This document shows, piece after piece, positions 7,574-40,440 of a DNA stretch of 58,333 nucleotides (the first letter of the stretch is position 1; each line of letters begins with the position of its first letter). The translations under genes were made by a program, and so were the position numbers. The DNA comes from Gammaproteobacteria bacterium. GTDB taxonomy: Bacteria; Pseudomonadota; Gammaproteobacteria; Steroidobacterales; Steroidobacteraceae. Where the stretch lies: the NCBI GenBank assembly GCA_028870355.1, contig JAGWPU010000035.1, forward strand, positions 1-58,333, read 5' to 3'. The notes under the pieces were generated by a model. The model was not told where the DNA came from. It saw nothing but the letters and a program-made list of their open reading frames with translations, and searched no databases.

Positions 7574-7620
7574 GGATGTCGATCCCTTCGCGCGGCGAAT
7601 AGCCGCCACCGAGCGATCGA

Positions 7621-7635
7621 GCAATTTTTGTGCCA
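7621..7635 (-). promoter_or_regulatory. sigma54 promoter of the fliL operon
   Basis: On the minus strand the sequence reads TGGCAC-AAAAA-TTGC followed by T, a perfect match to the -24/-12 consensus. Counting the C of TTGC as -12 puts the transcription start near 7609, giving a 36-base leader before fliL. Confidence 0.9.
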
Positions 7636-9770: not shown

Positions 9771-9781
9771 GGCAGCCTCCA

Positions 9782-11158: not shown

Positions 11159-11841
11159 TAGTCTTCTTCGCTGAGGCTGTATCCGGCGCCGCGGACCGTA
11201 TGCAGCAGGGGTTTGTCGAAATCCTTGTCGATCGCCTGCCGCAGGCGGCTGATGTGCACGTCGATCACGTTCGTCTGCGGGTCGAAATGGTAGTCCCAGA
11301 CGCCCTCCAGCAGCATCGTCCGGGTGACCACCTGGCCGCTGTGGCGCATCAGGAATTCGAGCAACTGGAACTCCCGCGCGGTCAGCTCGATCTTCTTGCC
11401 GCCGCGCGTGACCCGCCGCGTCATGCGGTCGAGTTCGAGGTCCGCGAGCTTGAGCTTGGTCGCGACCTCGCCGCTGCCGAGCTCGGCGCGGCGCGCGAGC
11501 GCGTCGATCCGGGCCAGCAGCTCGGACACGTGGTACGGCTTGGTCAGGTAATCGTCGCCGCCGGCGCGCAGACCCGTGATGCGATCGTCGACGTCGCCGA
11601 GCGCGCTCAGGATCAGTACCGGGACCTTGCGCCCCGTCGCCCGCAGGGACTGCACCAGCGCGAGTCCATCGAGCTTCGGCAGCATCCGGTCGACGATCGC
11701 GAGATCCAGCGCGATCGACGAGGCGAGGTGCAATCCCTCGAGGCCGTCCGCCGCGACGTCGACCGTATGGCCCACCTCGCGCAACGCCCTCGCGAGATGG
11801 TCCCTCGCGACCTGGTCATCCTCGACGATCAATAGGTGCAT
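11158..11841 (-). CDS. OmpR/PhoB-family response regulator
   Basis: 227 aa from ATG 11841 (MHLLIVEDDQVARDHLARAL). The receiver domain has the acidic pair ED-D, the phosphoacceptor in DLAIVDRMLPKLDG and Lys in LTKPYH. The C-terminal winged helix carries LTAREFQLLEFLMRHSGQV and NVIDVHISRLRQAI, typical of OmpR/PhoB. It is first gene of the operon with the kinase and M13 peptidase. A longer open frame upstream is antisense to the pigment genes and is rejected. Confidence 0.95.
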   Translation of the reverse strand: MHLLIVEDDQVARDHLARALREVGHTVDVAADGLEGLHLASSIALDLAIVDRMLPKLDGLALVQSLRATGRKVPVLILSALGDVDDRITGLRAGGDDYLTKPYHVSELLARIDALARRAELGSGEVATKLKLADLELDRMTRRVTRGGKKIELTAREFQLLEFLMRHSGQVVTRTMLLEGVWDYHFDPQTNVIDVHISRLRQAIDKDFDKPLLHTVRGAGYSLSEED

Positions 11842-12069: not shown

Positions 12070-12834
12070 ATGTCGAATCCGCTGCGGGCCGCATACGAGG
12101 CGCTGATCTATGCCGCAACGCTCGCGATCCTCGCGGTCCTGTCGCTCGCCTGGTCGACCTGCGCGTGGGTGCTGCGGCCCCTGCTCCCCGAGCGGATCGG
12201 AACCGCGATCGGCCGGCGCGCGATCATGACCGGCTTTCGGTTCTACGCGTGGCTGCTGTCGATCGCCGGGGCCTACCGCTTCGACCTCGGCGATCTCGGC
12301 GCATTGCGCGACGCGCCGCCGATGATCCTCGCGCCGAATCACCCGACGCTGCTCGACGCACCGATGATCCTCGGCCATCTCCCGAACCTCGCGTGCGTGA
12401 TGAAGGCGAGCGTCGGGCGCAATCCGTTGTTCGGCGGGGGCGCCCGTCTCGCACGCTACGTGAGCAACGACTCGCCGCGGCAGATGATCCGGGAATCGGT
12501 CGAAACCTTGCGTCGCGGCGGCCATTTGCTGCTGTTCCCCGAAGGCACCCGCACCGCGCGGGAGCCGATCAACGCGCTCGGCGGCGGGATCGGCGCGATC
12601 GCGAAGCGCGCCGGCGTCCCGGTCCAGACCCTGCTGATCGAGACCGACTCCCCGTTCCTCGGCAAGCGCTGGCGGCTGTCGCGGCCGCCGCGCCTGCCGA
12701 TCCATTACCGGGCCCGACTCGGTCGGCGGTTCGCACCGCCCACCGATGCCGGCCGGCTGGTCGCCGACCTCGAGGCCTATTTTCACGGCGCGCTCGGCGA
12801 TGCGACCGCGCCGCCACCGACGGAACGGCCCTGA
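12070..12834 (+). CDS. PlsC-type acyltransferase of the aryl polyene cluster
   Basis: 254 aa. An N-terminal hydrophobic helix (residues 11-37) is followed by the 1-acylglycerol-3-phosphate acyltransferase fold: the catalytic HX4D motif in NHPTLLD, and FPEGTRT for phosphate binding. Acyltransferases of this type are regular members of aryl polyene clusters, where they are thought to attach the polyene acyl chain to a lipid or glycolipid carrier. First gene of the cluster, with the next gene four bases after its stop. Confidence 0.88.
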   Translation: MSNPLRAAYEALIYAATLAILAVLSLAWSTCAWVLRPLLPERIGTAIGRRAIMTGFRFYAWLLSIAGAYRFDLGDLGALRDAPPMILAPNHPTLLDAPMILGHLPNLACVMKASVGRNPLFGGGARLARYVSNDSPRQMIRESVETLRRGGHLLLFPEGTRTAREPINALGGGIGAIAKRAGVPVQTLLIETDSPFLGKRWRLSRPPRLPIHYRARLGRRFAPPTDAGRLVADLEAYFHGALGDATAPPPTERP

Positions 12835-12837
12835 ACG

Positions 12838-13611
12838 ATGCCGCCGCGGTCGACGACCCATCTGGTGCTGATCCCGAGCTACGACCCCGGCCGCCGGGTC
12901 CATGACACCGTCCGGGCGGCGCGCGCGGTCTGGAACCCGGTGTGGATCGTCGTCGACGGCAGCACCGACGGGAGCGCCGAACGACTCGCGGCGCTCGCGG
13001 CCGAGGACCCCGGACTGCGGGTCTTCGTGCTGCCGCGAAACGCCGGCAAGGGCGCGGCGATCCTGCATGGGCTGCGCGCGGCGCACGCCGAGGGCTTCAC
13101 GCACGCGCTCACGATGGACTCCGACGGCCAGCATCCGGCGGATCGCATCGCGGCGTTCATGGCCGCCTCCGCGGCGCACCCCGCCGCGATGATCCTCGGG
13201 CGGCCGGTGTTCGATGCGAGCGCACCGGCGCTGCGGGTGCGCGGACGGCGGATCAGCAACGCGATCACGAACCTCGAGACCTTGTGGAGCGGCATCGACG
13301 ACTCGCTGTTCGGGTTCCGCGTGTACCCGATCGCACCGCTCCTCGAGATCATGCGCACGCACCGTTCGATGCGCCGGTTCGACTTCGACGTCGAGGCGGC
13401 GGTCCGCCTGCGCTGGCGCGGCGTCGAGGCGATCGGCCTGGACGCCGCGGTGCGCTACTTCTCCGCGGCCGACGGCGGTGTGTCCCACTTTCGCTACTGG
13501 CGCGACAATGCGCGCCTGACCGCGATGCACCTGCGCCTGCTCGGCGGCTTCCTGCTGCGCCTGCCATGGCTCGCCGCACGGCGGGTGCGACGGCCTCGCG
13601 AACCATTATAA
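12838..13611 (+). CDS. Family 2 glycosyltransferase of the aryl polyene cluster
   Basis: 257 aa. A GT-A fold is indicated by the start HLVLIPSYDPG, the VVDGSTDGS nucleotide-sugar region and the metal-binding DxD in LTMDSDGQHP. There is no transmembrane anchor apart from a hydrophobic C-terminal stretch (LLGGFLLRLPWLAARR). Such enzymes occur in aryl polyene clusters and may glycosylate the polyene anchor; donor and acceptor are not deducible. It follows the PlsC-like gene immediately. Confidence 0.88.
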   Translation: MPPRSTTHLVLIPSYDPGRRVHDTVRAARAVWNPVWIVVDGSTDGSAERLAALAAEDPGLRVFVLPRNAGKGAAILHGLRAAHAEGFTHALTMDSDGQHPADRIAAFMAASAAHPAAMILGRPVFDASAPALRVRGRRISNAITNLETLWSGIDDSLFGFRVYPIAPLLEIMRTHRSMRRFDFDVEAAVRLRWRGVEAIGLDAAVRYFSAADGGVSHFRYWRDNARLTAMHLRLLGGFLLRLPWLAARRVRRPREPL

Positions 13612-13651
13612 TGACCGCCATCTGCGTCATCCCGAGGCAATCGAACCGTCC

Positions 13652-13954
13652 ATGGCCGACCATGCGCCGCAGCTGCGCGAATCGACACCGTGCGCCGACA
13701 CCGCCCTGCAACGCGAAATCGCCGCGCTGTTCGTCGAATCGCTGAACCTGGACGTGACGGCCGACCAGATCGACCCGGACGCGCCGCTGTACGGCGAAGG
13801 TCTCGGCCTCGACTCGATCGACGTGCTGGAAGTCGCCCTGGTGTTGTCGAAGAGATACGGCGTCCAGTTGCGCGCGAACGACGCCGAGAATCAGCGCATC
13901 TTCGGCTCGCTGCGCAGCCTCGCGGACTTCGTCGCGTCCCGGAGGACGAAATGA
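13652..13954 (+). CDS. Acyl carrier protein of the aryl polyene cluster
   Basis: 100 aa. The phosphopantetheine attachment motif is GLGLDSIDVLEVAL with the modifiable Ser in DSI. It has a ~25-residue variable N-terminal extension ahead of the carrier fold. Aryl polyene clusters usually encode two carriers (ApeE and ApeF); this is the only one seen here, so it may carry both starter and growing chain. Its stop overlaps the start of the 25-codon frame (ATGA at 13951-13954). Confidence 0.93.
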   Translation: MADHAPQLRESTPCADTALQREIAALFVESLNLDVTADQIDPDAPLYGEGLGLDSIDVLEVALVLSKRYGVQLRANDAENQRIFGSLRSLADFVASRRTK

Positions 13955-14028
13955 GCGTCGTCCGGGGCGGCCGCGGGGCCGTGCGCGCCCGCTCGGGCTC
14001 CTCGAAGGTCGATCGCCCGCGCGAGTGA
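13951..14028 (+). CDS. 25-residue frame coupled at both ends; possible microprotein or remnant
   Basis: The ATG at 13951 overlaps the carrier-protein stop (ATGA) and has GGAGG 6 bases upstream, one of the best ribosome-binding sites in the cluster. The frame encodes MSVVRGGRGAVRARSGSSKV followed by five residues and a stop at 14026-14028, which overlaps the GTG start of the ligase (GTGA). The peptide is strongly basic, low in complexity and matches no family I know. In related clusters a polytopic membrane protein gene often sits between carrier and ligase; this may be its deletion scar or simply a coupling device. Confidence 0.45.
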   Translation: MSVVRGGRGAVRARSGSSKVDRPRE

Positions 14029-15371
14029 CGCCCGCGATGGCGACCGTCGCGCTGTTCACGCACCCTTCGCCGACCTCGATCCTCGCATGGCGCGGCGGTC
14101 GTCCGGTGACCGCGCTCGAATTCCTGCAGGACGTCCACGGACTCGCGCGGCGTCTGTCCCGGGCGACGCACTGGTTGAACGCCTGCGAGGATCGCTATCG
14201 CTTCGCCGTCGCGCTCGCGGCGGGCATCGTCGCCGGCAAGACCGCGCTGCTGCCGTCGACACGAACCCCGCAGACGATCCGCGACCTGCTCGAGCTCGCG
14301 CCGGATGCCGCGTGCGTGACCGACGATCCGCGCTGCCCGATCGAACTGCCGAAGGTTCTCCAGCGGGACGAGGACCGCGATCGCTCGACCGAATGGCGCG
14401 TGCCGCAGATCGACGCGGCACGCACCTTCGCGATCGTGTTCACCTCGGGTTCCACCGGAGCGCCGACGCCCCATCCGAAGACCTGGGGACGCGTGACGAA
14501 CTGCGTTCGCGCGGGCGCGGACCTGCTGGGGATCGCGGACGGACGCAGCCATGCGCTCGTCGGCACCGTTCCGCCGCAGCACATGTATGGGTTCGAATCG
14601 ACCGTTCTCGTCGCCCTGCACAGCGGCAACGCGCTCGTTGCCGAGCGCCCGTTCTATCCGGCGGACGTGGTCGCGGCGCTCGAGCGCTGCCCCCGGCCAC
14701 GGGCACTGATCTCGACCCCGGTCCACCTTCGGGCACTGCTCGCGGCCGACGTCGGCGCGCCGGCGCTCGATCGGGTCGTCTGTGCGACGGCACCGCTCGA
14801 TCCCGCGCTCGCGCAGCGGATCGAGGCACGCTTCGGTTGTGCACTGGACGAGATCTACGGGTCGACCGAAACCGGTCAGATCGCGATCCGGCGCACGGCC
14901 ACGACCGAGCGCTTCACGCTGCTGCCCGGCGTGAGCTTGAGCATCGAGGCGGATCGGGCGTTCGCCGACGGCGGCCACCTGGAGCGGCGCACGCCGCTCT
15001 ACGACGTGATCGAGTCGCTGCCGGACGGCGAGTTCCGGCTGCATGGTCGGACGCAGGACCTGGTCGAGATCGCCGGCAAGCGCAGCTCGTTCGCCTACCT
15101 GAACCATCAACTGAACTCGATCCCCGGCGTGATCGATGGGGCTTTCTTCGAACCCGCGCACGGCGCCCACGCCGAGACCGGCATCTCGCGGCTCGCCGCC
15201 GCGGTCGTCGCACCGACGCTCGATCCGACGACCCTGCTCGAACGGCTGCGCGATCGGATCGACCCGGCGTTCCTGCCACGGCCCCTGCTGTTCGTCGATC
15301 GGTTGCCCCGCAACGCGACCGGCAAGCTCCCGCGCGCAGCCCTGACGACGCTCGTGGCGAACGAGCGATGA
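14025..15371 (+). CDS. apeH: AMP-dependent acyl/aryl-ACP ligase (ApeH-like) loading the aryl starter
   Basis: 448 aa from GTG 14025; ATG 14037 is an alternative. Adenylation motifs are visible: the A3 loop FTSGSTGAPTPHPKTW with the two extra residues typical of aryl polyene ligases, YGSTETG (A5), RTQDLVEIAGKRSS (A8) and NATGKLPRAAL carrying the A10 lysine. Enzymes of this family activate an aromatic acid such as 4-hydroxybenzoate or 4-hydroxycinnamate and load it on a carrier protein. No gene for making the aromatic acid is in the window, so it must come from elsewhere. Confidence 0.88.
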   Translation: MTPAMATVALFTHPSPTSILAWRGGRPVTALEFLQDVHGLARRLSRATHWLNACEDRYRFAVALAAGIVAGKTALLPSTRTPQTIRDLLELAPDAACVTDDPRCPIELPKVLQRDEDRDRSTEWRVPQIDAARTFAIVFTSGSTGAPTPHPKTWGRVTNCVRAGADLLGIADGRSHALVGTVPPQHMYGFESTVLVALHSGNALVAERPFYPADVVAALERCPRPRALISTPVHLRALLAADVGAPALDRVVCATAPLDPALAQRIEARFGCALDEIYGSTETGQIAIRRTATTERFTLLPGVSLSIEADRAFADGGHLERRTPLYDVIESLPDGEFRLHGRTQDLVEIAGKRSSFAYLNHQLNSIPGVIDGAFFEPAHGAHAETGISRLAAAVVAPTLDPTTLLERLRDRIDPAFLPRPLLFVDRLPRNATGKLPRAALTTLVANER

Positions 15372-15709
15372 GCGGCGTCGCCGCCGGGCCACCGCGTTCG
15401 CCACCGGTCGATCTCGAGATCGACGCGGATCACCCCGCCTACGCCGGCCACTTTCCGGGCGATCCCGTGCTGCCGGGCGTCGTGCTGCTGGACGCGGCGC
15501 TGCGCCGACTCGCCGACGACGGCCGGATCGATGCCGGGGACTGCGAGATCCTCTGGTTCAAATTCTCCGCGCCGGTTCGTCCGCACGACCGGGTCGTCCT
15601 GGAGACCGACGAAGACGCGTCGGGCACACTGCGCGTTCGCATCGTCTGCGGTCCGCGGACCGTCGCGACCGGCGCGCTGCGCTCGCGTCCGCGCCGGGGC
15701 GCACCGTGA
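15368..15709 (+). CDS. apeI: Hot-dog dehydratase subunit (ApeI-like)
   Basis: 113 aa. The HFPGDPVLPGVVLLDAA segment is the FabZ-type hot-dog helix region. The catalytic Glu usual after PGV is replaced by Asp (LLDAA). In the Xenorhabdus aryl polyene system ApeI pairs with ApeP as a heteromeric dehydratase, and a partner is present at 23089. Start overlaps the ligase stop (ATGA) and stop overlaps the next GTG. Confidence 0.82.
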   Translation: MSGVAAGPPRSPPVDLEIDADHPAYAGHFPGDPVLPGVVLLDAALRRLADDGRIDAGDCEILWFKFSAPVRPHDRVVLETDEDASGTLRVRIVCGPRTVATGALRSRPRRGAP

Positions 15710-16653
15710 GCCTGCCGGTACGCGCGCCGGCTCCGGTACGCGCACCGCGCGCGCAGTGGCTCGGCGTCCGCGAGCGCGGCAGTCTCGCGCTGCTGCGACT
15801 GATGGCCGCGCTGAGCCTCGGTCTGGGGCGGCGGACGAGCCGCGCGATCCTGCACGCGGTCACCGCCTATTATTTCGCGTTCACGCCACGCGCGCGGCGC
15901 GCCTCTCGCGGGTACTTGCGCCGGGCGCTCGGCCGCGAGCCGCGGCTCGGCGAGCGGTATCGGCACTTCCACCACTTCGCCACGACGATCCACGACCGCG
16001 TGTTCCTCGCGGGCGACCGCGCAGCGACGCTGGCGCTGTCGATCGAAGGCGAGGCGTTGATGCGCGCCCAGCAGGCGAGCGGTCGCGGCGCGATCCTCCT
16101 CGGCGCGCACTTCGGCAGTTTCGCGATCGTCGGGGCGGTCGGCCGACGGATCGAGGGCGTGCGCATCGCGATGGCGATGTACGAGGACAACGCGGGCAAG
16201 CTGCGCCGCCTGTTCGAGGCGATCGGCGCGGGCGCGGCGCCGCCGATCGTTCCGCTCGGCCACGTCGACTCGATGCTACGGATCGCCGAGCGGCTCGACC
16301 GCGGTGAATTCGTCGGGATCCTCGGCGACCGCAGCCTCGGCGGCGACGCCCACCATCCGGTGCGATTGCTCGGCGAGCGGACGCTGCTGCCGACCGGACC
16401 GATGCGGATCGCCGCGATCCTCGGCTGCCCGGTGATCTTCATGGCGGGACTGTATCGCGGCACGAATCGCTATCACGTCGTGTTCGAGCCCGTCGCCGAT
16501 TTCACGGGACTGCGCGCCGCGGTCCGCCGGGCCGCGGTCGATGCGGCGATCGAGCGCTACGCGGCGCTGCTCGACGGGCATTGCCGTCGCGATCCGTACA
16601 ACTGGTTCAACTTCTACGAGTTCTGGAACCCCGCCGACTCGGAGGCGTCGTGA
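15706..16653 (+). CDS. LpxL/HtrB-type acyltransferase with an altered HX4E motif
   Basis: 315 aa from GTG 15706 overlapping the dehydratase stop. The fold matches lipid A late acyltransferase-like enzymes of aryl polyene clusters: a hydrophobic N-terminal helix, GAILLGAHFGSF, ILGDRSLGG, and the C-terminal DPYNWFNFYEFW. The catalytic dyad HX4E/D should place an acid five residues after His, but the sequence is HFGSFA, with Ala. Either activity uses another residue or the enzyme is impaired. Likely role: anchoring the polyene in a membrane lipid. Confidence 0.83.
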   Translation: MSLPVRAPAPVRAPRAQWLGVRERGSLALLRLMAALSLGLGRRTSRAILHAVTAYYFAFTPRARRASRGYLRRALGREPRLGERYRHFHHFATTIHDRVFLAGDRAATLALSIEGEALMRAQQASGRGAILLGAHFGSFAIVGAVGRRIEGVRIAMAMYEDNAGKLRRLFEAIGAGAAPPIVPLGHVDSMLRIAERLDRGEFVGILGDRSLGGDAHHPVRLLGERTLLPTGPMRIAAILGCPVIFMAGLYRGTNRYHVVFEPVADFTGLRAAVRRAAVDAAIERYAALLDGHCRRDPYNWFNFYEFWNPADSEAS

Positions 16654-17306
16654 GCCGGCTCCGGGCGCCCACCGTCGCCGCGATCGCACTGATCGCGGCG
16701 GCCGCCGCGTCGCTCGGCACCGCACCGACCCGCGCCGCACCGCCTCCCGCGACACCGCTCCCCGCGACACCGACCCTCGCGCCGGCCGCCGGGCCCCCGA
16801 CCGACGATCTCGCCGACGTGATGCGGTTGCTCGGCGCACGGACGCACCGCCGGGCGAGGTTTCGCGAACGGCAGGATCTCGCCGTCCTCGACCGACCGCT
16901 GGTCTCGACCGGCGAGTTGATCTACGACGCACCGGGACGGCTCGAGGAGCGCGTGCTCACGCCCCGCAGGGAAACCCTGATCGCGCAAGGCGATCGGCTC
17001 TCGGTCGAGCGCGACGGCCGGCGGCGGGTGTTCGAGTTGTCGCGCGCGACGGGATTCGCCGCGCTGATCGGCAGTCTGCGAGCGACCCTCGCCGGCGACG
17101 ACGCGGCGCTGCGACGCGACTTCGCGGTCGAATTCCACGGTGACCTCGCCCGATGGACGCTGCGCCTGACGCCGCGATCCGCGGCACTCGCGCGGCAGAT
17201 CGCCCGGATCCGGATCGACGGCACCCGCGGCGAACTGCGTCGCGTCGTGATCCGCTCGGCGAACGGCGACGCCTCGGTGATGCGGCTCACGGAGCCGGCG
17301 CGATGA
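16650..17306 (+). CDS. LolA-like outer-membrane lipoprotein carrier protein of the cluster
   Basis: 218 aa from GTG 16650 with GGAGG 4 bases upstream. A signal peptide (residues 1-28, ending TRAAP) leads to a Pro/Ala-rich spacer (about 30-50). A LolA-type half-barrel follows: RFRERQDLAVLDRPLVSTGELIYDAPGRLEE, then LTPRSAALARQIARIRIDGT and LRRVVIRSANGD. Such proteins in aryl polyene clusters are thought to carry the lipid-linked pigment through the periplasm, acting with the MMPL exporter encoded next. Confidence 0.85.
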   Translation: MSRLRAPTVAAIALIAAAAASLGTAPTRAAPPPATPLPATPTLAPAAGPPTDDLADVMRLLGARTHRRARFRERQDLAVLDRPLVSTGELIYDAPGRLEERVLTPRRETLIAQGDRLSVERDGRRRVFELSRATGFAALIGSLRATLAGDDAALRRDFAVEFHGDLARWTLRLTPRSAALARQIARIRIDGTRGELRRVVIRSANGDASVMRLTEPAR

Positions 17307-19645
17307 GCCGGCGCGACCGCGTGGTACTCGCGGTGTGGCTCGCGGTGCTCGTCGCCGCGGCGACGCTCGCGCTGCGCGCACGCTACGTCACGGATCTCTC
17401 GGCGCTGCTGCCGACCCGGCCCGCACCTGGGCAGCGTCTGCTCGGCGACCTGTTGCGCGACGGGCCCGCCGCGAAGACGATTCTCGCCGCAATCGAGGGC
17501 GGCAGCGCCGCGGATCGGGCAGGCGCGGCGCGCACACTGGTCGCACGCTCGCTCGCGTCCCGGGAATTTTCGACCGTCGACGACGGCGACCGGGCCGGAC
17601 TCGCTCGCGCGCAGCGGTTCGTGTTCGAGCATCGGTACGTGCTCGACGCCGCGGCCGCGGCGCACCTGTCCACGGCGCAGGCCCTGCATCGGGCGATCCG
17701 GCGCACGATCGAGGATCTCGCGACACCCGCGGGCCCCTGGCTCGTCCGGCTGCTGCCGCACGACCCGACCGGCGAAACCGCCCGCCTCGCCGAGCGCTGG
17801 ACCCCGGACGGCGGCCCGCCGCGGTGTGACGGCGTGTGGTGCTCGCGCTCGGGTGAGCGCGCGCTCCTGGTGCTGCGCACCCGGGCGGCCGGCTCCGACA
17901 CCGACGGGCAGGCGAACGCGATCGCGACGATTCGTGGGGCGTTCCGCACGATCGCCGGCCCGAACGGCCGCCTGCGGCTGCGGCTGAGCGGACCCCCGGT
18001 GTTCGCGGTGCAGGCGCGCGCGCGGATCGAGCGCAGCGCCGAACGGCTGTCGGTCATCGCCGGTGCCTGCGTCGTCGCACTGCTGCTCCTGGTGTACCGT
18101 TCGCCCGCCGCCGTGCTGCTCGGGCTGCTGCCGGTCGCGACCGCAGCGACGGTCGGCGTGGCCGCGGTCGCCGGGGTGTTCGGCGCGGTCCAGGGCATGA
18201 CGCTCGGCTTCGGTGTCACGCTGATCGGCGAGGCCGTCGACTACGCGATCTACTTCTTCCTGCAATCGGCCCATGCGGCCGATGCCTGGCGGCAGCGATA
18301 CTGGCCGACGATCCGGCTCGGTGCGTTGACCTCGATCTGCGGATTCGCCGCGTTGCTGCCGTCCGGGTTCCCCGGTCTCGAACAACTCGGCGTGTACTGC
18401 CTGTGCGGCCTCGCGGCCGCGGCGGCGACCACGCGCTACGTGCTGCCGCGTCTCGCAACCGGGTCGCTCGACGCACGCTCGGTCGCATCGCTCGGCGCGG
18501 CGCTGCGCCGCGCGCTGCCGGCGCCGCGGATCGGCGCCGCGCTCCTCGGCGGCCTCGCGGTCGCGTCGCTCGCGGTACTGCTGTTCGCACGCGGCGGCGC
18601 GTGGAGTCACGATCTGGCCGCGCTGAGCCCGGTACCGGCCGCCGAGCGCCGGTTCGACGGCGCGCTGCGCGCCGATCTCGGCGCGGCCGACGTGCGCGAC
18701 CTGGTGGTTGCGCAGGGTGCGGATCGCGAACGGGCGCTGCAGGCAGCCGAACGGGCCGCGCGATCGCTCCGGCGACTCGAGGCCGATCGCGTGATCGGCG
18801 GCTTCGACGACCCGGCGACGATCCTGCCGAGCCTCTCGGCGCAGCGCGCGCGGCAGCGTGCGCTGCCCGACGCACGCACCCTCGCCGCGCGCCTGCATCG
18901 CGCGCTCGTCGGCCTGCCGGTGCACGAGACGACGCTCGCGCCGTTCCTTGCCGACGTCGCGGCCGCCCGCGCGGCGCCACCGTTGACTCGCCGCGACCTC
19001 GACGGCACGCCGCTCGCGGCCGCGTTCGACGCGCTGCTGCTCCGTCGACGCGGTCGCTGGATCGCGTTGCTGCCGCTGCGCGCACCGCTCGTCGACGGCC
19101 GGCCGGGATCGATCGACCTCCCGCGGGTCCGGGAGGCCGTGTCCGGCCGCGCCGAGGCGATCGACCTCGAGGCCGATGCGAATGGCTTGTACGCGGTCTA
19201 CCTGCGAAATGCGCTGCGTGCGTCGGCGGTCGGCGTGTTCGCGATCACGGTCCTGCTCGCCGCCACGCTGCGCTCGGTCCGGCGGACGCTGCGCGTGCTC
19301 GCACCGCTCGCCGTCGCGGTCGGCGCCGTCGCCGCGGCACTCGCGCTCGCCGGGATCCGGCTGACGATCCTGCACCTGGTCGGGATGCTGCTGATCGTCG
19401 CGATCGGATCGAACTACGCATTGTTCTTCGTGCGGCACGGGGCGGACGATGACGGCGCGATCACGGGTTCGCTCGCGATCGCGAACGCGGCGACCGTGAT
19501 CGGCTTCGGACTGCTCGCGACGGCGCCGGTACCCGTGCTGCGCGATCTCGGCCTCACGGTCGCCCCGGGCGCACTGCTCGCGTTCCTGTGCTCGGCGCTG
19601 CTGGCGCCGACCGCGCCGGGCGCATCGGCACGGATCGGTCGATGA
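17303..19645 (+). CDS. MMPL/RND-type exporter of the aryl polyene cluster
   Basis: 780 aa from ATG 17303. It has the duplicated MMPL architecture: one helix, a large periplasmic domain and five helices, repeated. The first half keeps the helix motif GEAVDYAIYFF with the proton-relay Asp-Tyr; the second half has GSNYALFFVRHG without Asp. The first periplasmic loop begins TDLSALLPTRPAPGQ, typical of pigment exporters of this group. It probably flips or exports the polyene lipid toward the outer membrane with the LolA-like protein. Overlaps both neighbours by four bases. Confidence 0.92.
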   Translation: MSRRDRVVLAVWLAVLVAAATLALRARYVTDLSALLPTRPAPGQRLLGDLLRDGPAAKTILAAIEGGSAADRAGAARTLVARSLASREFSTVDDGDRAGLARAQRFVFEHRYVLDAAAAAHLSTAQALHRAIRRTIEDLATPAGPWLVRLLPHDPTGETARLAERWTPDGGPPRCDGVWCSRSGERALLVLRTRAAGSDTDGQANAIATIRGAFRTIAGPNGRLRLRLSGPPVFAVQARARIERSAERLSVIAGACVVALLLLVYRSPAAVLLGLLPVATAATVGVAAVAGVFGAVQGMTLGFGVTLIGEAVDYAIYFFLQSAHAADAWRQRYWPTIRLGALTSICGFAALLPSGFPGLEQLGVYCLCGLAAAAATTRYVLPRLATGSLDARSVASLGAALRRALPAPRIGAALLGGLAVASLAVLLFARGGAWSHDLAALSPVPAAERRFDGALRADLGAADVRDLVVAQGADRERALQAAERAARSLRRLEADRVIGGFDDPATILPSLSAQRARQRALPDARTLAARLHRALVGLPVHETTLAPFLADVAAARAAPPLTRRDLDGTPLAAAFDALLLRRRGRWIALLPLRAPLVDGRPGSIDLPRVREAVSGRAEAIDLEADANGLYAVYLRNALRASAVGVFAITVLLAATLRSVRRTLRVLAPLAVAVGAVAAALALAGIRLTILHLVGMLLIVAIGSNYALFFVRHGADDDGAITGSLAIANAATVIGFGLLATAPVPVLRDLGLTVAPGALLAFLCSALLAPTAPGASARIGR

Positions 19646-20238
19646 GACCCGTGCGGCTCCTGCCCGGGGTCAACGATCCGCCCGAGCGATTCCTCGAGGC
19701 GGGCTTCGAAGCCGCCGCGCGCGATCGAGGCGTGCCGTTTCGCTTCGAACTCCTGCGCTACGAGTTCGAGGACCTCGCCGACCCGCAGGCGATCGCGCGG
19801 CTCGAGGAGCGCGCGGTCGCAGGCAACGACGGCGACGCACCCGCGTGGCTCGTCGGTGTCTCGCTCGGCGGCTATCTCGCGCTGCAGTGCGCACGCCGCC
19901 GGCCCGACGCGATCGCCGGGGTGTGTCTGATCGCCCCCTACCTCGGTGGACGGGCACTGATCGACGAGATCGCGCGCGCGCCCGGGCTCGCGGCGTGGCA
20001 CCCCGGTGTCGCGGAATCGGAGGACGAGGACCGACGGCTCTGGCGATTCCTGAAGGAGCGGGCGGACGAGCTGTCGCTGTACCTCGGCGCCGGCGCCGCC
20101 GACCGCTTCGCGCGAGCCCACGCGTTGCTCGCACCGCGTCTGCCGCGCGGGCGGGTGCAGGTCGTCGATGGCGGCCACGACTGGACGACCTGGCGACGCA
20201 TCTGGGACGCGTTCCTCGACAGTGGACTGTGGCGATGA
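19642..20238 (+). CDS. Alpha/beta hydrolase, possible thioesterase role
   Basis: 198 aa from ATG 19642 overlapping the exporter stop. The nucleophile elbow is GVSLGGYLALQ, a candidate Asp lies in the middle segment and the catalytic His is in VVDGGHDW; YEFEDLADP near residue 40 also recurs in this group. Small hydrolases like this may serve as the thioesterase releasing the chain, since no hot-dog thioesterase is present in the cluster. Function is inferred from fold and place. Confidence 0.72.
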   Translation: MRPVRLLPGVNDPPERFLEAGFEAAARDRGVPFRFELLRYEFEDLADPQAIARLEERAVAGNDGDAPAWLVGVSLGGYLALQCARRRPDAIAGVCLIAPYLGGRALIDEIARAPGLAAWHPGVAESEDEDRRLWRFLKERADELSLYLGAGAADRFARAHALLAPRLPRGRVQVVDGGHDWTTWRRIWDAFLDSGLWR

Positions 20239-21086
20239 GCGAAGAGCGCCCGACCCGACGCCGCTGGATCCCGTCGCCGGCGATCCGCGCGTCGATGGGA
20301 CTGCACCTCGCCGCCGCCGCGGGGCTGATCGCGCGGCCGGCCGCGTGGCCGCTGGCGCTCGGCGCGATCGCCGCCGATCACGCGGTGCTCGCCGGGGCCG
20401 GCCTCTGGCCGCGGAGCCGCCTGCTCGGACCGAACTGGACCCGCCTGCCGGCCACCGCCGCCGCGCGCGGCGAGGTCGCGATCACGATCGACGACGGACC
20501 CGACCCCGACGCGACCCCCCCGATGCTCGATGCGCTCGCGCGCTTCGGCGTCGTCGCGACGTTCTTCTGCATCGGCGAGCGCGTCGCACGTCATCCGGAC
20601 CTCGTCCGGCGGATCGTGCGCGCCGGCCATGCGATCGAAAACCACAGCGACACCCACCGGCACACGTTTTCGCTGCTCGGACCGGCCGCGTTGCGCCGTG
20701 ACGTGGCGCAGGCGCAGACGCGGATCGCCGCGGTCGGCGGCACCGCGCCGGCGTTCTTCCGGGCGCCGGCCGGCTTGCGCAATCCACTGCTCGAGCCCGT
20801 GCTCGCGCGGCACGATCTGCGACTCGCGAGCTGGTCGCGCCGCGGCTTCGACACCGTGAGCCGGGATCCCGATCGCGTGCTCGAACGTCTGACGCGCGGC
20901 CTGCGCGGTGGCGAGATCCTGTTGCTGCACGACGGACACGCGGCGCGCGCGGCGAACGGTGCACCGATCGGTGCGCTCGTGCTGCCCCGCCTGCTCGAGG
21001 CCTTGCGCCGACGCGCGCTGATCCCGGTCACGCTGCGCGCGGCGCTCGAGCAGGAGCGCGGTCGAGTGCTCAGCGATCCGGGATAG
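20235..21086 (+). CDS. NodB-type polysaccharide deacetylase
   Basis: 283 aa. Two hydrophobic N-terminal helices (about 20-60) precede a NodB domain: catalytic Asp and first motif in ITIDDGPDPDATPP, metal-binding HSDTH, FFRAPAG, and the C-terminal LLLHDGH. All metal ligands are present. Located between the exporter/hydrolase and the ketosynthase genes, it may deacetylate an N-acetylated sugar that anchors the polyene, which would fit with the glycosyltransferase in the same cluster. Membrane-anchored, active site probably periplasmic. Confidence 0.85.
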   Translation: MSEERPTRRRWIPSPAIRASMGLHLAAAAGLIARPAAWPLALGAIAADHAVLAGAGLWPRSRLLGPNWTRLPATAAARGEVAITIDDGPDPDATPPMLDALARFGVVATFFCIGERVARHPDLVRRIVRAGHAIENHSDTHRHTFSLLGPAALRRDVAQAQTRIAAVGGTAPAFFRAPAGLRNPLLEPVLARHDLRLASWSRRGFDTVSRDPDRVLERLTRGLRGGEILLLHDGHAARAANGAPIGALVLPRLLEALRRRALIPVTLRAALEQERGRVLSDPG

Positions 21087-21095
21087 AATCGAGCG

Positions 21096-22304
21096 ATGGA
21101 TCCGACCCCCTGCGCCCCGCTCGTGCTCGCGGCGTTCACCGCGACCAGCGGCATCGGCGTCGGCAATGCGGCGACGCTCGCGTCGTTGCGGACGCAGCGC
21201 GGCGGCCTGCGGCCCTGCGACTTCGACGGCGCCGACGTGCCGACGTGGGTCGGCGCGGTCGACGCCGCCGGGGCACAGCCGTTGCCGCCCGAATGGCACC
21301 GCTACGATTGCCGCAACAATCGACTCGCGGAGCTCGCGCTGGGTCAGGACGGACTCCTCGAGCGGGTGCGCGCAGCCGCCGGACGGCATGGCCGGCAGCG
21401 CATCGGCGTATTCCTCGGAACGAGCACTTCCGGGATCCTCGAGACGGAACGGGCCTATCGCCGCCGCGAGCCGGCCGATGGGGCGCTGCCGCCGGACTTC
21501 GACTATCGCGGCACGCACAACGCATTCTCGACCGTCGATTACCTGCGCGGCCGCTGCGGCCTCGCGGGACCCGCGGCGACCGTCTGCGCGGCCTGCGCGT
21601 CGAGCGCGAAGGTGTTCGCGGTCGCGCGGCGCATGATTGCCGCGGACGTGATCGACGCGGCCCTCGTTGGCGGCGTGGATTCGCTGTGCCTGACGACCCT
21701 GTACGGCTTTCACTCGCTGCAGTTGCTCGCACCCGGCCCCTGCCGCCCGTTCGATGCCGCGCGGGACGGCTTGTCGATCGGCGAAGCCGCCGCGTTCGCA
21801 TTGCTCGAACGGGCGCCGTCGAGCCTGGATCCGGATGCGGTGCTGCTGCTCGGCACCGGCGAGTCGAGCGATGCCCACCACATGTCGACACCGCACCCGG
21901 AGGGGCTCGGGGCACGGATCGCGATCGAACGGGCGCTCGGCGACGCCCGGCTCGACGCCCAGGCGATCGACTACCTGAACCTCCACGGAACCGGCACCCC
22001 GAGCAATGACCGGGCGGAGAGCCGCGCGGTGCTCGCGACCTGCGGCGCCTCGGTCCCGTGCAGTTCGACCAAGGGCGCGACCGGGCACACGCTCGGCGCG
22101 GCCGGCGCGCTGGAAGCGGTGCTGAGCTCGCTGTGTCTGGGCGCGGGACTGCTGCCCGCGGGCCTCGGCACCGCGCAGGTCGACGCCGCGCTCGGCGTGA
22201 ATTACCTCACCGGCAACCGACCGGCACCGCTGCGTCGAGTCCTCAGCAACTCGTTCGGATTCGGCGGCGCGAACTGCTGTCTCGTGCTCGGGACGGCCGG
22301 ATGA
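21096..22304 (+). CDS. apeO: Beta-ketoacyl-ACP synthase (ApeO-like) of the aryl polyene pathway
   Basis: 402 aa, a full thiolase-fold condensing enzyme. Catalytic residues are intact: Cys in TVCAACASSAK, His in NLHGTGTPSND and His in TKGATGHTLGAAG. The C-terminal SFGFGGANCCLVL glycine motif is present. It should elongate the aryl starter with malonyl units as the active partner of the chain-length-factor-like protein encoded next. It is the only complete condensing enzyme in the cluster; most related clusters have a second one (ApeR). Confidence 0.92.
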   Translation: MDPTPCAPLVLAAFTATSGIGVGNAATLASLRTQRGGLRPCDFDGADVPTWVGAVDAAGAQPLPPEWHRYDCRNNRLAELALGQDGLLERVRAAAGRHGRQRIGVFLGTSTSGILETERAYRRREPADGALPPDFDYRGTHNAFSTVDYLRGRCGLAGPAATVCAACASSAKVFAVARRMIAADVIDAALVGGVDSLCLTTLYGFHSLQLLAPGPCRPFDAARDGLSIGEAAAFALLERAPSSLDPDAVLLLGTGESSDAHHMSTPHPEGLGARIAIERALGDARLDAQAIDYLNLHGTGTPSNDRAESRAVLATCGASVPCSSTKGATGHTLGAAGALEAVLSSLCLGAGLLPAGLGTAQVDAALGVNYLTGNRPAPLRRVLSNSFGFGGANCCLVLGTAG

Positions 22305-23098
22305 GTCTCGGCGCGTACGTCGAGGGCGTCGGGGTGCTCGGACCCGGCTTGCCCGACTGGCGGGAAGCCGCGCGGATCTTCCGCGACCCCGGCGCGTATC
22401 GGCCGACCGCGAGCGAGGTGCCGGCGCCGTCGATCCTCCCGGTCGCGGAGCGGCGACGCACCGGCCGCGTCGTTCGGCTCGCGCTCGCGGTCGCGCTCGA
22501 CGCGATTCGCGGCGCCGGGATCGACCCGGCACAGCTGCCGAGCGTGTTTGCGAGTTCCGGCGGCGACGGCGCGAACTGCCACGAGATCTGCACGGCGCTC
22601 GCCGAGCCGCCGCGCGAGCTGTCGCCGACCCGATTCACGAATTCCGTGCACAATCTCGTCGCCGGCTACTGGAGCATCGCCGTCGGGGCGATGCGGCCGT
22701 CGCAGACACTGTGCGCGTACGATGCGAGTTTCGCCGCCGGCCTGCTCGAGGCGCTCGTCGGCGTCGCGATCGAGCGCGAACCGGTGCTGCTCGTCGGGTA
22801 CGACGCGCCATACCCGCAGCCGCTGCACGCGACGCGACCGATCGCGGCCGAATTCGGCGTCGCGCTGGTGCTCGCGCCGCGCCCGACCGCCCGGAGCATC
22901 GCGCGGATCGACGCGAGCATCGCGGCGGGGGAGGCCCAGATCCTCGACGATGCGCCGCTGGAAGCGCTGCGGCGGGGCGCGCCGGCCGCGCGCAGCCTCC
23001 CGCTGCTCGCGGCACTCGCCCTCGGGATGCCGCGGGTGACGACGGTCGAATACCTGGATTCGGACGGTTTGCGCGTGCAGGTGAGTCCGTGCGACTAG
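22301..23098 (+). CDS. apeC: Chain-length-factor-like ketosynthase homologue (ApeC-like)
   Basis: 265 aa from ATG 22301, overlapping the ketosynthase stop. It is a half-length member of the ketosynthase superfamily with the segments FASSGGDGANCHEICTAL and FTNSVHNLVAGYWSIA. At the place of the active-site Cys the sequence is LCAYDASFAAG, with Asp instead of Cys, so it cannot condense. In the aryl polyene literature such a protein pairs with the active ketosynthase. Its position right after apeO fits a heterodimer. Confidence 0.85.
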   Translation: MSLGAYVEGVGVLGPGLPDWREAARIFRDPGAYRPTASEVPAPSILPVAERRRTGRVVRLALAVALDAIRGAGIDPAQLPSVFASSGGDGANCHEICTALAEPPRELSPTRFTNSVHNLVAGYWSIAVGAMRPSQTLCAYDASFAAGLLEALVGVAIEREPVLLVGYDAPYPQPLHATRPIAAEFGVALVLAPRPTARSIARIDASIAAGEAQILDDAPLEALRRGAPAARSLPLLAALALGMPRVTTVEYLDSDGLRVQVSPCD

Positions 23099-23553
23099 GT
23101 CGCGACGCCATCGCCCGCCGCGTGCCCCACACGGGCGCGATGTGCCTGCTCGATGAAGTCCTCGACTGGGACGCGCAGCGCCTCCGGTGCCGCAGCCACA
23201 GCCATCGGCACGGCGAGAACCCGCTGCGGGCCGGCGAGCGGCTCGGTGCCGCGTGCGCGGTCGAATACGCGGCGCAAGCGGCGGCCCTGCACGGTGCGCT
23301 GCTGCGCGAGGCGAACGACGGTGCGCCGTCGCGAGTCCCACCGGGACGGCTCGCGAGCGTCCGCGGTCTGCGCCTGCGGATCGCGCGGCTCGACGACGCG
23401 CCGCACGGCTTGCTCTGCGCCGTGAGGTTGCTCGCGAGCGACGCGAACGTCCGCCAATACGCGTTCGAGGTCGGCGGTGATCGCGCATCGCTGGCCTGGG
23501 TCGAGGGTCGGCTGGCGATCGTGACGGCACCCACGGGGGAAGCAAGCGGATGA
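23089..23553 (+). CDS. apeP: Hot-dog dehydratase subunit (ApeP-like)
   Basis: 154 aa from GTG 23089, with AGGTGA just upstream and a 10-base overlap with the previous gene. The FabZ-like N-terminal active-site segment is RVPHTGAMCLLDEV with the catalytic His, and the central helix ACAVEYAAQAAALHG carries Glu and Gln in the positions expected of hot-dog dehydratases. It probably pairs with the ApeI-like protein at 15368, which has Asp instead of Glu, so this subunit likely supplies the active site. Confidence 0.85.
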   Translation: MRLGRDAIARRVPHTGAMCLLDEVLDWDAQRLRCRSHSHRHGENPLRAGERLGAACAVEYAAQAAALHGALLREANDGAPSRVPPGRLASVRGLRLRIARLDDAPHGLLCAVRLLASDANVRQYAFEVGGDRASLAWVEGRLAIVTAPTGEASG

Positions 23554-24281
23554 ACGACATCGCACGGCGCGCGCTCGTCACCGGCGGGAGCGGCGCGATC
23601 GGCGCGGCGATCTGCCGGCGCCTCGCGGCTGCCGGCCGGGAGGTGTGGGTACACGCCCACCGCCATCTTGCCGCCGCGGAGTCGGTGGTCGCCGCGATCC
23701 GGGCCGATGGCGGCCAGGCTCACGCGATCGCGTTCGACGTGACCGACGCGGCCGCGAGCCGCGCAGCGCTCGAGCCGCTCGTCGAGGAGCATCCCGTGCA
23801 GATCCTGGTCAACAACGCCGGGGTCCACGACGACGCGCCGTTCGCCGGAATGAGCGCCGAGCAGTGGCACCGGGTGATCGACGTATCCCTGAACGGCTTC
23901 CATCACGTGACCCAGCCGGTGCTGTTGCCGATGATCCGCAGCCGCTGGGGGCGCATCGTGAACGTGACCTCGATTGCGGGGCTCCTCGGCAATCGAGGCC
24001 AGGTGAACTACGCGGCCGCGAAGGGCGCGTTGCACGCGGCGACCAAGGCGCTCTGCCTCGAGGTCGCGAGCCGCGGGATCACGGTGAACGCGGTCGCGCC
24101 GGGCGTGATCGCGACGCCGATGAGCGCCACGGCGTTCGACGAGGGCCGTATCGCGGCGCTGGTACCGATGAAGCGTGCGGGACGCGCGGACGAGGTCGCA
24201 AGCCTGGTCGGCTACCTGGCGTCCGACGAAGCCGCCTACGTGACGGGCCAGGTGATCGCGGTCGGCGGCGGGCTCGGCTGA
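23550..24281 (+). CDS. apeQ: 3-oxoacyl-ACP reductase (FabG/ApeQ-like)
   Basis: 243 aa, a classical short-chain dehydrogenase. The nucleotide-binding motif is TGGSGAIGAAI, with NNAG at about residue 90. Catalytic Ser lies in VTSIAGLLG, and Tyr and Lys in VNYAAAKGA. It ends QVIAVGGGLG like FabG. It reduces the keto group of the growing polyene. Last gene of the cluster; its stop is one base from the convergent fliK stop, with no terminator between them. Confidence 0.92.
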   Translation: MNDIARRALVTGGSGAIGAAICRRLAAAGREVWVHAHRHLAAAESVVAAIRADGGQAHAIAFDVTDAAASRAALEPLVEEHPVQILVNNAGVHDDAPFAGMSAEQWHRVIDVSLNGFHHVTQPVLLPMIRSRWGRIVNVTSIAGLLGNRGQVNYAAAKGALHAATKALCLEVASRGITVNAVAPGVIATPMSATAFDEGRIAALVPMKRAGRADEVASLVGYLASDEAAYVTGQVIAVGGGLG

Positions 24282-24282: not shown

Positions 24283-25722
24283 TCACGCGTAGGCGTCGAG
24301 CATGCCCTGGGCCGCGCGAAGCGGTGCGGAGGAGACCGCAACCGCGGTCGTCGCCGTCGCGCGCTCGACCGCCGGGGGCACGAACGGCTGTCGCGCGGCG
24401 CCCGGGTCGCCGTACGACTGCCGTGACACGTCGACGCTCACCTGCGTGAACCCGTGGGCGCCGAGCAGCTCGCGCAGCCGTGGCGCACCCGACTGCAAGG
24501 CATCGAACGCGACCGCGTTGTGCGCACCGAGCCACACCGCGGCGTGCCCGCGCTCGACCGAGATCCGCAGTTCGACGGGACCCAGATGGGGCGGATTGAC
24601 CTGCAGACTCGCCCCGTTCAGGCTCTGGTCCGCGAGCCAGGTGACCCGACCGGCGAGCGCCGCCGGCAATTCGTGCGACCCGAGATCGATCGGCCCGTGC
24701 GCCGGAAGGGCCGCGTGATCGGTCAGGCCGGTCGCCGGTGGCGGCGCCGGCGCGAGCGCCGACGCGGCGAGCTGCGAGGGATCCGCGATCGCCGCGGACG
24801 GATCCGCGGTCGGCGTCTTCCCGTCCGCATGCGCGGCCGCCGCCACGGACGTCGCGTGCGGCGCAGCGGCGATCTTCGCGAGCGCGCCGTTCGGCGCGGG
24901 ACCGCCGGCGGTCGCCGCGGTCGTCGCGCCGACGAGGGCGCTCGACCCGGCAGTCGCGCCACTGCCCGTTCCCGATGCCCGTGCGGCCGCGGCAACCCGG
25001 CCGGTCGTGGGCAACCGGTCCGCCTCGCCGCCGGGGCTGGCCGCGACGTCACTCGCGCGCAGCGCGGCAGCGATCTCGGATCGCGCAGCGATCTGCGCAG
25101 CGCCGGCGGCCGCCGCCGACGGTGGCGCGAGCGCGGCGCGAGCGTCCACGGCCGGCGCAGATGCCGTCGTGGCGGACGCGACGTCGTGCATCGCCTGGGG
25201 TCCCGGCACGAGGGATTGTCCGGTCGGCACCGCAGGCGCGGTGTGCTCGGTCCGCGCCGCCGGCGGCGGCTCGATCGGTCCGGCGGAGGCAATCCCGAGC
25301 GTGGGGAATGACCGCTCGACCGCGGCTCCTCCGGGGTTGCCGATGCCGTCGATCGCCGCGATCCGCGGATCACCGACGCGTGCGCTCGATCGGCCCGTCG
25401 GCGCGGCGGACGGGGGCAGCGGCGACCCGAGCACGGCCCACGGCGGCAACCCTGGCAAGGGGTTGCCGGCCGGCGGCAACGCGATGCCGGCGGTGGCATC
25501 CGCGCGGGTGCTCGATGAATGGGTCCCCGCCACCTTGTCGTGGTGCGCGGCCTGCAGCGCCTTGGAGAAACTCGGCCGGCCGTCGCCCGATGCCGCAGAG
25601 CCGCCGGAACCGGTGGGACTCGCGTTCGACCCACCGACCGGCCGCCCGCCCGACGCCGGCGTCGACACGGTCGCCGGAGCGACGGGGGTTGGGATCGAGA
25701 TTGCGGGCAGGCTCGCGGGCAT
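24283..25722 (-). CDS. fliK: FliK, hook-length control protein
   Basis: 479 aa. The first ~330 residues are low-complexity Ala/Pro/Gly/Thr sequence, as expected for the molecular-ruler part. The C-terminal Flg_hook domain (about 355-440) has NGASLQVNPPHLGPVELRISVERG and LRELLGAHGFTQVSVDVS, which in FliK contacts FlhB to switch export. Last gene of the fleS-fleR-fliE-fliK series, ending head-to-head with the pigment cluster rather than leading into fliL as usual. Confidence 0.92.
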   Translation of the reverse strand: MPASLPAISIPTPVAPATVSTPASGGRPVGGSNASPTGSGGSAASGDGRPSFSKALQAAHHDKVAGTHSSSTRADATAGIALPPAGNPLPGLPPWAVLGSPLPPSAAPTGRSSARVGDPRIAAIDGIGNPGGAAVERSFPTLGIASAGPIEPPPAARTEHTAPAVPTGQSLVPGPQAMHDVASATTASAPAVDARAALAPPSAAAAGAAQIAARSEIAAALRASDVAASPGGEADRLPTTGRVAAAARASGTGSGATAGSSALVGATTAATAGGPAPNGALAKIAAAPHATSVAAAAHADGKTPTADPSAAIADPSQLAASALAPAPPPATGLTDHAALPAHGPIDLGSHELPAALAGRVTWLADQSLNGASLQVNPPHLGPVELRISVERGHAAVWLGAHNAVAFDALQSGAPRLRELLGAHGFTQVSVDVSRQSYGDPGAARQPFVPPAVERATATTAVAVSSAPLRAAQGMLDAYA

Positions 25723-25801
25723 GCCCGAGACGAAGCAAGTCTCGTGCCAGGCCGCACCGATCGCGAGTCGGAATCGACCGAGTGGTCGGCGCGCCGGTCC
25801 T

Positions 25802-26242
25802 TCAACCCTCCGGACGGGACAGGGCGATGCGCAAGGCGCTCTCGTCGCCGTCGCGCTGCTCGATCCGATCGGCGATCCGCCGTTCCTCGTGGCGGTAGCG
25901 CTCGACCGCGCGATTCAGGGACTCCGCCTCGACACGCTTCGCGCTCCACTGCGTTCGCCGCGCCTCGCAGTCGGCGCGCGCGACGCCGAGATTCTGCGCG
26001 TGCAACCGCAGCGCCTCGCTCAGCCGGTCCAGGAAGTGGTGATAGTTTCTCAGGCTCACCACGTCCATCGCCCCACCCGGCTGGGCGGCTTTGCGCACGT
26101 ACTCGTCGCGATAGGCGCGCAGTTGCGCCATCTGCCGTTCGAGTTCCGCGACGCGGTGTTCGGCGTCGAGCAACGAGCGGCGTGCGGTGGTCGCGGCGTC
26201 CATCGCCAGGTCCCGCAGGGGCTCGAATCGCTTGGATTTCAT
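25802..26242 (-). CDS. fliJ: FliJ, flagellar export ATPase stalk/chaperone-escort protein
   Basis: 146 aa, almost wholly alpha-helical and charged, predicted as a two-stranded coiled coil (RSLLDAEHRVAELERQMAQL; ESLNRAVERYRHEERRIADR). FliJ resembles the gamma subunit of F-ATPase and sits in the FliI ring. Position after fliI is canonical. Sequence similarity is modest, as always in this family. Confidence 0.88.
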   Translation of the reverse strand: MKSKRFEPLRDLAMDAATTARRSLLDAEHRVAELERQMAQLRAYRDEYVRKAAQPGGAMDVVSLRNYHHFLDRLSEALRLHAQNLGVARADCEARRTQWSAKRVEAESLNRAVERYRHEERRIADRIEQRDGDESALRIALSRPEG

Positions 26243-26258
26243 CGCGAAGGCTCCGTGA

Positions 26259-40275: not shown

Positions 40276-40440
40276 GGGGAATCCGCGTAAATCGCCGTCC
40301 GGAGGAGCGACGGGGGTCACGGTTTTCACGTCGGACGCCGCTGCAGGCAGCCTCGCACGGCCGTCCGGCGCGGCGGCGCGCGCCACCGACCGGCGTCGGC
40401 CGGCTGGACCCGGGGTGTCGGCGCCGCGGGCGTTATGCAT

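Follow-up and report, generated by a model that had tools for sequence, protein, structure and literature searches.

How does a gene cluster for an aryl polyene (APE) pigment come to stand inside a flagellar locus, and does this address tie the pigment to motility? The question is raised by a stretch of 58,333 nt (the window) from a gammaproteobacterium of the family Steroidobacteraceae (assembly GCA_028870355.1, contig JAGWPU010000035.1), in which an APE operon lies between fliK and fliL. The window is a single contig of a draft genome of 2.93 Mb in 162 contigs, and its G+C content is 70.3%. We consider it quite likely that the fliK-fliL boundary is a permissive landing site between flagellar transcription units and that it carries a standard APE cluster, the two sets of genes being neighbours by position and not by function.

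The operon between fliK and fliL

The gap between fliK and fliL measures 16.7 kb. From the fliK end it contains the 14-gene APE operon (12070-24281, plus strand), then genes for a response regulator (RR), a histidine kinase (HK) and an M13 family metallopeptidase, all on the minus strand, and then fliL, also on the minus strand. A preliminary description had counted 15 tightly spaced plus-strand frames here; their placement, strand and spacing were confirmed, while the count is 14 and the minus-strand RR-HK-M13 genes (7746-11841) in the same gap had been missed. The operon genes tile from an acyltransferase open reading frame (ORF) to the stop codon of a ketoreductase (KR), which lies 1 bp from the stop codon of fliK, the two genes converging. 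Both sides of the gap are occupied by colinear minus-strand flagellar genes, with fliF-G-H-I-J-K on one side and fliL, fliM and fliO on the other (Pfam). The G+C content of the operon, 0.729 versus 0.682-0.715 for four neighbouring blocks, is uninformative. The genes of the gap are as follows.

12070..12834, plus: PlsC-type acyltransferase (ApeD-like), operon gene 1; Pfam PF01553, E 9.7e-14
12838..13611, plus: GT2 glycosyltransferase; Pfam PF00535, E 8.9e-18
13652..13954, plus: acyl carrier protein (ACP); Pfam PF00550; NCBIfam NF006617, E 1.1e-39, above cut-off
14025..15371, plus: AMP-dependent acyl ligase (ApeH-like); NCBIfam ligase models, best TIGR02372, E 1e-34, under its cut-off
15371..15709, plus: FabA/FabZ-like dehydratase (ApeI-like); Pfam PF07977 in the enclosing frame; PDB FabZ chains, E ~1e-5
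15706..16653, plus: LpxL-type acyltransferase; Pfam PF03279, E 2e-11
16650..17306, plus: LolA-like periplasmic carrier (ApeL-like); Pfam PF19574 LolA_3, E 4.5e-20
17303..19645, plus: MMPL/RND exporter (ApeM-like); Pfam PF03176, E 6.9e-14 on a longer ORF, the exact start taken from the operon overlap
19642..20238, plus: alpha/beta hydrolase; Pfam PF00756/PF12697 on a longer ORF
20235..21086, plus: polysaccharide deacetylase (PDA)-like protein; Pfam PF01522, E 1.9e-27
21096..22304, plus: ketosynthase (KS, ApeO-like); NCBIfam NF006618, E 5.7e-153, above cut-off; top PDB chains 6qsp_A, 7f28_B
22301..23098, plus: chain-length factor (CLF, ApeC-like); Pfam PF13723 on a longer ORF; top PDB chains 7f28_A, 6qsp_B
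23095..23553, plus: second hot-dog dehydratase (ApeP-like); AlphaFold model, pLDDT 82.8; top fold match 6qsr_B (ApeI:P dehydratase heterocomplex)
23550..24281, plus: 3-oxoacyl-ACP reductase (ApeQ-like); Pfam PF00106, E 1.5e-53; PDB FabG chains
11158..11841, minus: RR, OmpR type by eye from the translation; divergent from the APE operon with 228 bp between; orthologues 81-97% identical in 18 relatives
9782..11158, minus: HAMP HK; Pfam HATPase_c, HisKA, HAMP
7746..9782, minus: M13 family metallopeptidase; Pfam PF05649/PF01431

By its gene content, 12070-24281 is a standard APE cluster at an unusual address, with a yellow outer-membrane product predicted. The gene names in the preliminary description agree with the Pfam, NCBIfam and PDB matches and with predicted fold. 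An ApeO-type KS is paired with an ApeC-type CLF, their best PDB matches being both chains of 6qsp and 7f28, which we take to be ApeO:ApeC complexes (the molecule names in PDB are generic); 6qsp is presumably the Xenorhabdus doucetiae Ape structure. There are two dehydratases of ApeI/ApeP type, the first recognized by sequence; the second (23095..23553), with no Pfam match and no PDB sequence match, was recognized by its predicted fold, which resembles the X. doucetiae ApeI:P structure 6qsr. An ACP, an aryl-activating ligase (its substrate being a prediction) and a KR are all encoded, as are acyltransferases, a LolA-like carrier and an MMPL/RND exporter for placement in the membrane.

The Escherichia coli CFT073 ape cluster comprises 18 genes, and full pigment is kept upon deletion of apeA and partial pigment upon deletion of apeF (PMC8253772). 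The full E. coli complement is not present in 12070-24281, into which separate genes for ApeA, B, G, K, N and R and for a second ACP would not fit; because the apeA and apeF deletions retain pigment, this full set was not taken as definitional. The two clusters share KS and CLF, two dehydratases, a reductase, an ACP, a ligase, a lysophospholipid-type acyltransferase, a LolA-like carrier, an RND exporter, and a single direction with overlapping frames. Unlike the E. coli cluster, the window operon has one ACP rather than two, carries the ApeJ glycosyltransferase/acyltransferase as two separate genes, adds a PDA and an alpha/beta hydrolase, and sits inside a flagellar locus. In eight relatives a membrane protein of ~211 residues stands between ACP and ligase (L126 11575-12224, minus; L127 5735-6390, plus), at the ApeG position of E. 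coli; the window operon has no room for it.

The xanthomonadin (yellow pigment) clusters of Lysobacter and Xanthomonas (PMC3691225) likewise have a type II polyketide synthase with KS and partner, two dehydratases, exporters and an outer-membrane carrier; unlike them, the 14 window genes include no halogenase, dioxygenase or Rrf2-type regulator. In the relative G157 the operon has as a neighbour a tryptophan-halogenase-like FAD enzyme (L140:1272-2627) with no counterpart in the window operon. Gene order is shared with named APE loci of Polaromonas, Ralstonia, Burkholderia, Paraburkholderia and others (L013-L091): the commonest order, found in 12 of the 44 loci longer than 20 kb among 80 fetched, is ACP-ligase-FabZ-LpxL-LolA-MMPL-PDA-KS-CLF-dehydratase-KR, and in those 12, unlike in the window, GT2 and the acyltransferase AT1 come after, on the opposite strand. 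PDA is present in all 44. Among the titles listed from the open-access literature none concerned an APE cluster within a flagellar locus, and no paper there contained 'aryl polyene' together with 'fliK', subscription papers lying mostly outside that scope.

In the predicted pathway, an aromatic starter (4-hydroxybenzoate via the chorismate lyase UbiC) would be loaded on the ACP and extended by KS/CLF, the reductase and the two dehydratases; the product would be attached to lipid by the acyltransferases and the glycosyltransferase and exported to the outer membrane via the MMPL and LolA-like proteins. UbiC is encoded elsewhere in the same genome; it is the source of 4-hydroxybenzoate in E. coli (PMC8253772).

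Age of the arrangement and order of arrival

We mapped FliK, FliL, FlhA and the APE KS in each of 23 genomes of the genus, many of them multi-contig drafts. FliK and FliL fell on one contig in nine genomes, with KS between them in eight (G000, G061, G097, G116, G148, G151, G152 and G153), on contigs of up to 234 kb; the ninth, G124, has no APE KS and a gap of 5.5 kb between its FliK and FliL matches. Five more flagellated, APE-bearing genomes are split over contigs with the APE genes adjoining fliK (G107, G136, where the FliK match is a weak fragment, G142, G156 and G157). All 13 of 13 genomes that have both flagellar genes and this APE are therefore consistent with the arrangement. Local tblastn of the window genes recovered the same order in relatives, with scattered misses (AT1 in G152; the alpha/beta hydrolase in G006, G107, G136 and G152; M13 in G116 and G148). 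In G148 a peroxidase-family gene (PF00141; L128:17512-19758) follows HK, at the M13 position of several relatives. Drafts in many contigs, such as the window genome and most relatives, might raise the suspicion of an artefact of assembly or binning, an explanation to which we give next to no credence, the same order being found on single contigs in 8 of the 23 genomes, the window one included.

In a tree of KS and CLF (100 sequences), all 17 members at the site form one clade (support 0.991), which leaves out the genus APE copies of G029 and G086 and the family genomes G009 and G125. The order thus extends across the genus with a single APE clade, which rules out a recent insertion. The preliminary description had itself named such an arrangement in all close relatives as what would refute a recent insertion and make the order ancestral, and the synteny comparison shows it across the genus. 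We conclude that the APE operon is old at this site in the genus and probably entered once.

What stood at the site before can be read in part from the outgroup g3. Its genomes G002 and G027 read fliK-RR-HK-fliL at the junction, with APE and MipA absent there; in G002 fliK is also followed by a PALP-family gene, and the G027 genome encodes an APE KS at another place. These junctions, with the colinear flanks, bear out the earlier proposal of an insertion into the flagellar locus. Among 150 genomes of the family, searched for HK matches at E 1e-90 or better, those of at least 70% identity are limited to g1 and g3, the next best being 47%. Because close HK genes are found only there, and RR-HK stands at the site without APE in G002 and G027, the two-component system was probably at the site before the APE operon. 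For the same reason it is unlikely that the operon brought the two-component system along.

G124 was also considered as a clean pre-APE state. Its order is fliK-MipA-RR-HK-M13-fliL; this candidate was dropped, since the MipA gene between fliK and RR may be a leftover of a lost operon. APE may have been lost in G124, or MipA may have arrived first. The gene (L136:3374-4189, minus) encodes a protein 51% identical to MipA of G116, and G124 is a flagellated genome. In nine relatives (G061, G097, G116, G148, G150, G151, G152, G153 and G157) MipA is a neighbour of the APE operon, and it also occurs in the separate APE region of G086; in L126:14187-15215 and L127:2930-3760 it stands beside the first operon gene, and it is not among the window operon genes. 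In a tree of HK and RR with 22 tips (HK in all, three of them partial; RR in 19), G124 takes a basal, weakly supported position in the genus (63). G045, another genome without an APE KS, lies deep among APE-bearing genomes (100), as expected for APE loss with flagellar genes kept.

Pigment genes and flagella apart

FliK, FliL, FlhA and FliF were all absent from 6 of the 23 genus genomes: G006, G075, G150, G154, G029 and G086 (98, 96, 96, 71, 98 and 99% complete, respectively). An APE KS was present in all six. The site operon is kept in four, G006, G075, G150 and, in part only, G154; G029 and G086 carry different APE lineages elsewhere. G086 also has two close HK copies on separate contigs (L173, L174). 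Conversely, four genomes with FlhA had no APE KS at E 1e-60 (G045, G124, G130 and G155, of which G155 is 72% and G130 86% complete). An operon belonging to the flagellar regulon should be lost with flagella; KS is instead present in 6 of 6 genomes lacking the markers and missing in 4 of 17 with a marker.

The marker-less genomes retain the surroundings of the operon. M13-HK-RR lies beside it as in the window in G006 and G150, and in G075 the module extends over two contigs with the break between RR and operon. Downstream of the operon, all three have rimO, an FKBP-like gene and uvrA; in the window, flagellar blocks (24283-40.4 kb and 42.3-54.6 kb) come before these genes are reached. rimO comes directly after the operon in G006 and G075, and after ~5.4 kb of other genes in G150; G154, on a 9.9 kb contig, has an operon part (reductase to deacetylase) and rimO 5.3 kb away.

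One of these junctions preserves a trace of the flagellar locus. In G075 a 45-bp stretch right after the reductase matches the window fliK tail at 34 of 45 positions, a score reached by none of 2000 two-base-block shuffles, and it is joined to sequence that in the window lies upstream of rimO. Judged from these matches, the G075 junction is a deletion scar. Against other fliK tails the stretch matches more weakly (1 of 2000 shuffles for G142, 47 of 2000 for G107, 158 of 2000 for G136). No persuasive fliK remnant was seen beside the reductase in G006, G150 or G154. The match of G006 to the window extends just 7 bp beyond the stop, and of the four tails with which it was compared, one (that of G136) scored above every shuffle; for G150 this held only with a putative fliK stretch of G153, and for G154 with none. 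The left flank of G006 had no match to the far side of the flagellar locus in the stretches fetched, and a PadR gene of G150 matches the far end of the G116 contig. In the HK and RR tree G006/G075 and G150 fall in separate clades, each containing flagellated genomes, and in the KS and CLF tree G154 nests with flagellated G116 and G148 (0.972). If the draft genomes are trusted, flagella were lost in at least three lineages.

These patterns bear on whether the linkage is functional. The APE lipid, in the outer membrane or at the basal body, might aid the flagellum, or the operon might be co-regulated through its position in the flagellar locus. This would fit the fact that the genus has long kept the two linked, and that both the operon and flagellar genes adjoin a two-component system. 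However, of the six genomes without flagellar markers four retain the site operon and the other two carry another APE, the four flagellated drafts above lack KS, and the operon is on the opposite strand; in addition, no window flagellar protein had a match in any of the 80 named loci with related APE clusters (flanks of at most 10 kb; the G075 contig is itself counted among the 80, as L012). We regard such coupling as very unlikely. A motility-linked APE function is not supported by the presence/absence pattern, and the tie between pigment and motility that the preliminary description had entertained finds no footing in it, in the strand of the operon or in the promoter-like site of fliL described below.

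Alternatively, the two-component system could control both APE and the downstream fliL operon as a switch between a sessile, pigmented state and a motile one. RR and the APE operon are indeed divergent, 228 bp apart, and RR-HK-M13 lies ~120 bp upstream of fliL with the same orientation. On the other hand, orthologous RR-HK is found without flagellar markers in G006, G075, G150, G029 and G086, and in flagellated genomes without site APE or without an APE KS (G002, G027, G124 and G045); fliL has its own promoter-like site; and the RR upstream regions of 19 genomes (the window and 18 others), viewed by eye without a formal motif search, had no motif common to all. We think this switch unlikely. 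Improbable too, in our estimate, is that RR-HK, the APE operon and, often, M13 form an envelope-remodelling cassette for which the flagellar locus is a switch point, RR-HK driving APE outward and the fliL operon inward, with the cassette kept by the at least three lineages that lost flagellar genes. The APE operon may be regulated by the adjacent two-component system.

The fliK-fliL boundary

A permissive landing site, the reading we prefer, requires that the boundary between fliK and fliL tolerate inserts. The sigma-54 consensus was searched in the strict form TGGC-N7-TTGC. Features of the flagellar locus are listed here.

7025..7624, minus: fliL; Pfam PF03748, E 9.9e-25; called start overlaps the promoter sequence
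7621..7635, minus: sigma-54-type promoter sequence TGGCACAAAAATTGC before fliL; pattern match, found in relatives
24283..25722, minus: fliK, converging on the APE operon; Pfam PF02120, E 3.4e-17
25735..25749, minus: sigma-54-type promoter sequence before fliK; pattern match
25802..30945, minus: fliJ, fliI, fliH, fliG, fliF; Pfam
305-2272, minus: flhA; located by match
40435..41850, plus: rimO-like radical SAM/TRAM gene; Pfam; by synteny, follows the APE operon in relatives that lack flagella

The window has four strict sites, before fliL, fliK, flgA and a minus-strand ORF (52331-52756) in the flg block; the true fliL start is probably some codons downstream of the called one. At fliL the strict site was found in 15 of the 16 genus genomes with FliL, and in the sixteenth, G156, FliL is near a contig end. 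In other genera, within 700 bp of the FliL match, the strict form was present at 9 of 11 loci (9 of 9 from six genera), with one change in the two g3 loci; these 11 loci were already in the set, mostly with non-adjacent fliK and fliL, and G009 (strict form) has them adjacent. As fliL has its own sigma-54-type promoter sequence family-wide, the junction between fliK and fliL is an operon boundary, and this putative promoter is likely the reason that the site tolerates inserts.

In the 150 family genomes, fliK and fliL are adjacent on one strand within 1.5 kb in 67 of 92 same-contig pairs, or 62 of 87 genomes, as the preliminary description had expected; places with weaker matches, 29 for FliK and 4 for FliL, were regarded as second flagellar or secretion systems and are not in this tally. 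Non-adjacent exceptions occur in g1, g3, g4, g13, g14, g18 and g24. Some have inserts unrelated to APE, namely a GH43/ricin-lectin protein in two g4 genomes and a TonB receptor and a FAD enzyme in two g14 genomes. In seven g18 genomes (including G018, L183) fliK and fliL are on opposite strands with ~9.3 kb between them, which looks like an inversion of the fli operon at this very boundary. The earlier alternative that the locus is just a landing site is thus the one favoured by the colinear flanks, the usual adjacency of fliK and fliL and the APE-free g3 junctions.

Several observations weigh against this reading. The strict pattern taken alone is weak, with 4 matches versus 1.2 expected and 4 of 100 shuffles reaching 4. 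The operon kept its place beside flagellar genes as KS diverged down to 64% identity, a possible sign of selection on its position. The two-component system was retained with the operon in G006, G075 and G150 and may regulate APE. If G124 lost its APE, only the two g3 genomes represent the APE-free ancestral state. Finally, single absences in drafts can be gaps: FliL is present in G045, G107 and G136, yet FliF and FliK are missing from the first and FlhA from the other two.

On balance we favour a landing site at which the APE operon would have entered the fliK-fliL boundary a single time, in a common ancestor of the whole genus or most of it, at a point between fliK and a two-component system that had probably arrived earlier. 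With a sigma-54-type promoter sequence on each flagellar unit, the insert would have cut no flagellar operon and could persist, and the operon would then have outlived the flagellum in several lineages.

Elsewhere, the window contains a kinase and a sigma-54 activator (FleSR-like), a PilZ protein and fliD, followed by rimO, the FKBP-like gene, flg genes (part of them checked by test), flgA, flgM, flgN and the start of a uvrA-like gene; fliN, fliP, fliQ, fliR and flhB were named by eye. rimO and the FKBP-like gene (40435-42335) stand between two flagellar blocks, and in the marker-less genomes they lie downstream of APE with uvrA after them. A tRNA-Ala (cgc) called by ARAGORN at 2519-2613 (minus), inside flhB, is probably a false positive.

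A role of the APE operon in motility is unlikely, and the locus cautions that adjacency to flagellar genes does not imply one. It offers a well-resolved case of a biosynthetic cluster that settled in a core locus without disturbance, for which living relatives show the other states. Some have just the two-component system at the junction, others have the complete set, and others have lost the flagellum from around the operon, one of them with a short deletion scar left behind. The locus also marks the junction of fliK and fliL as a permissive boundary in the family.

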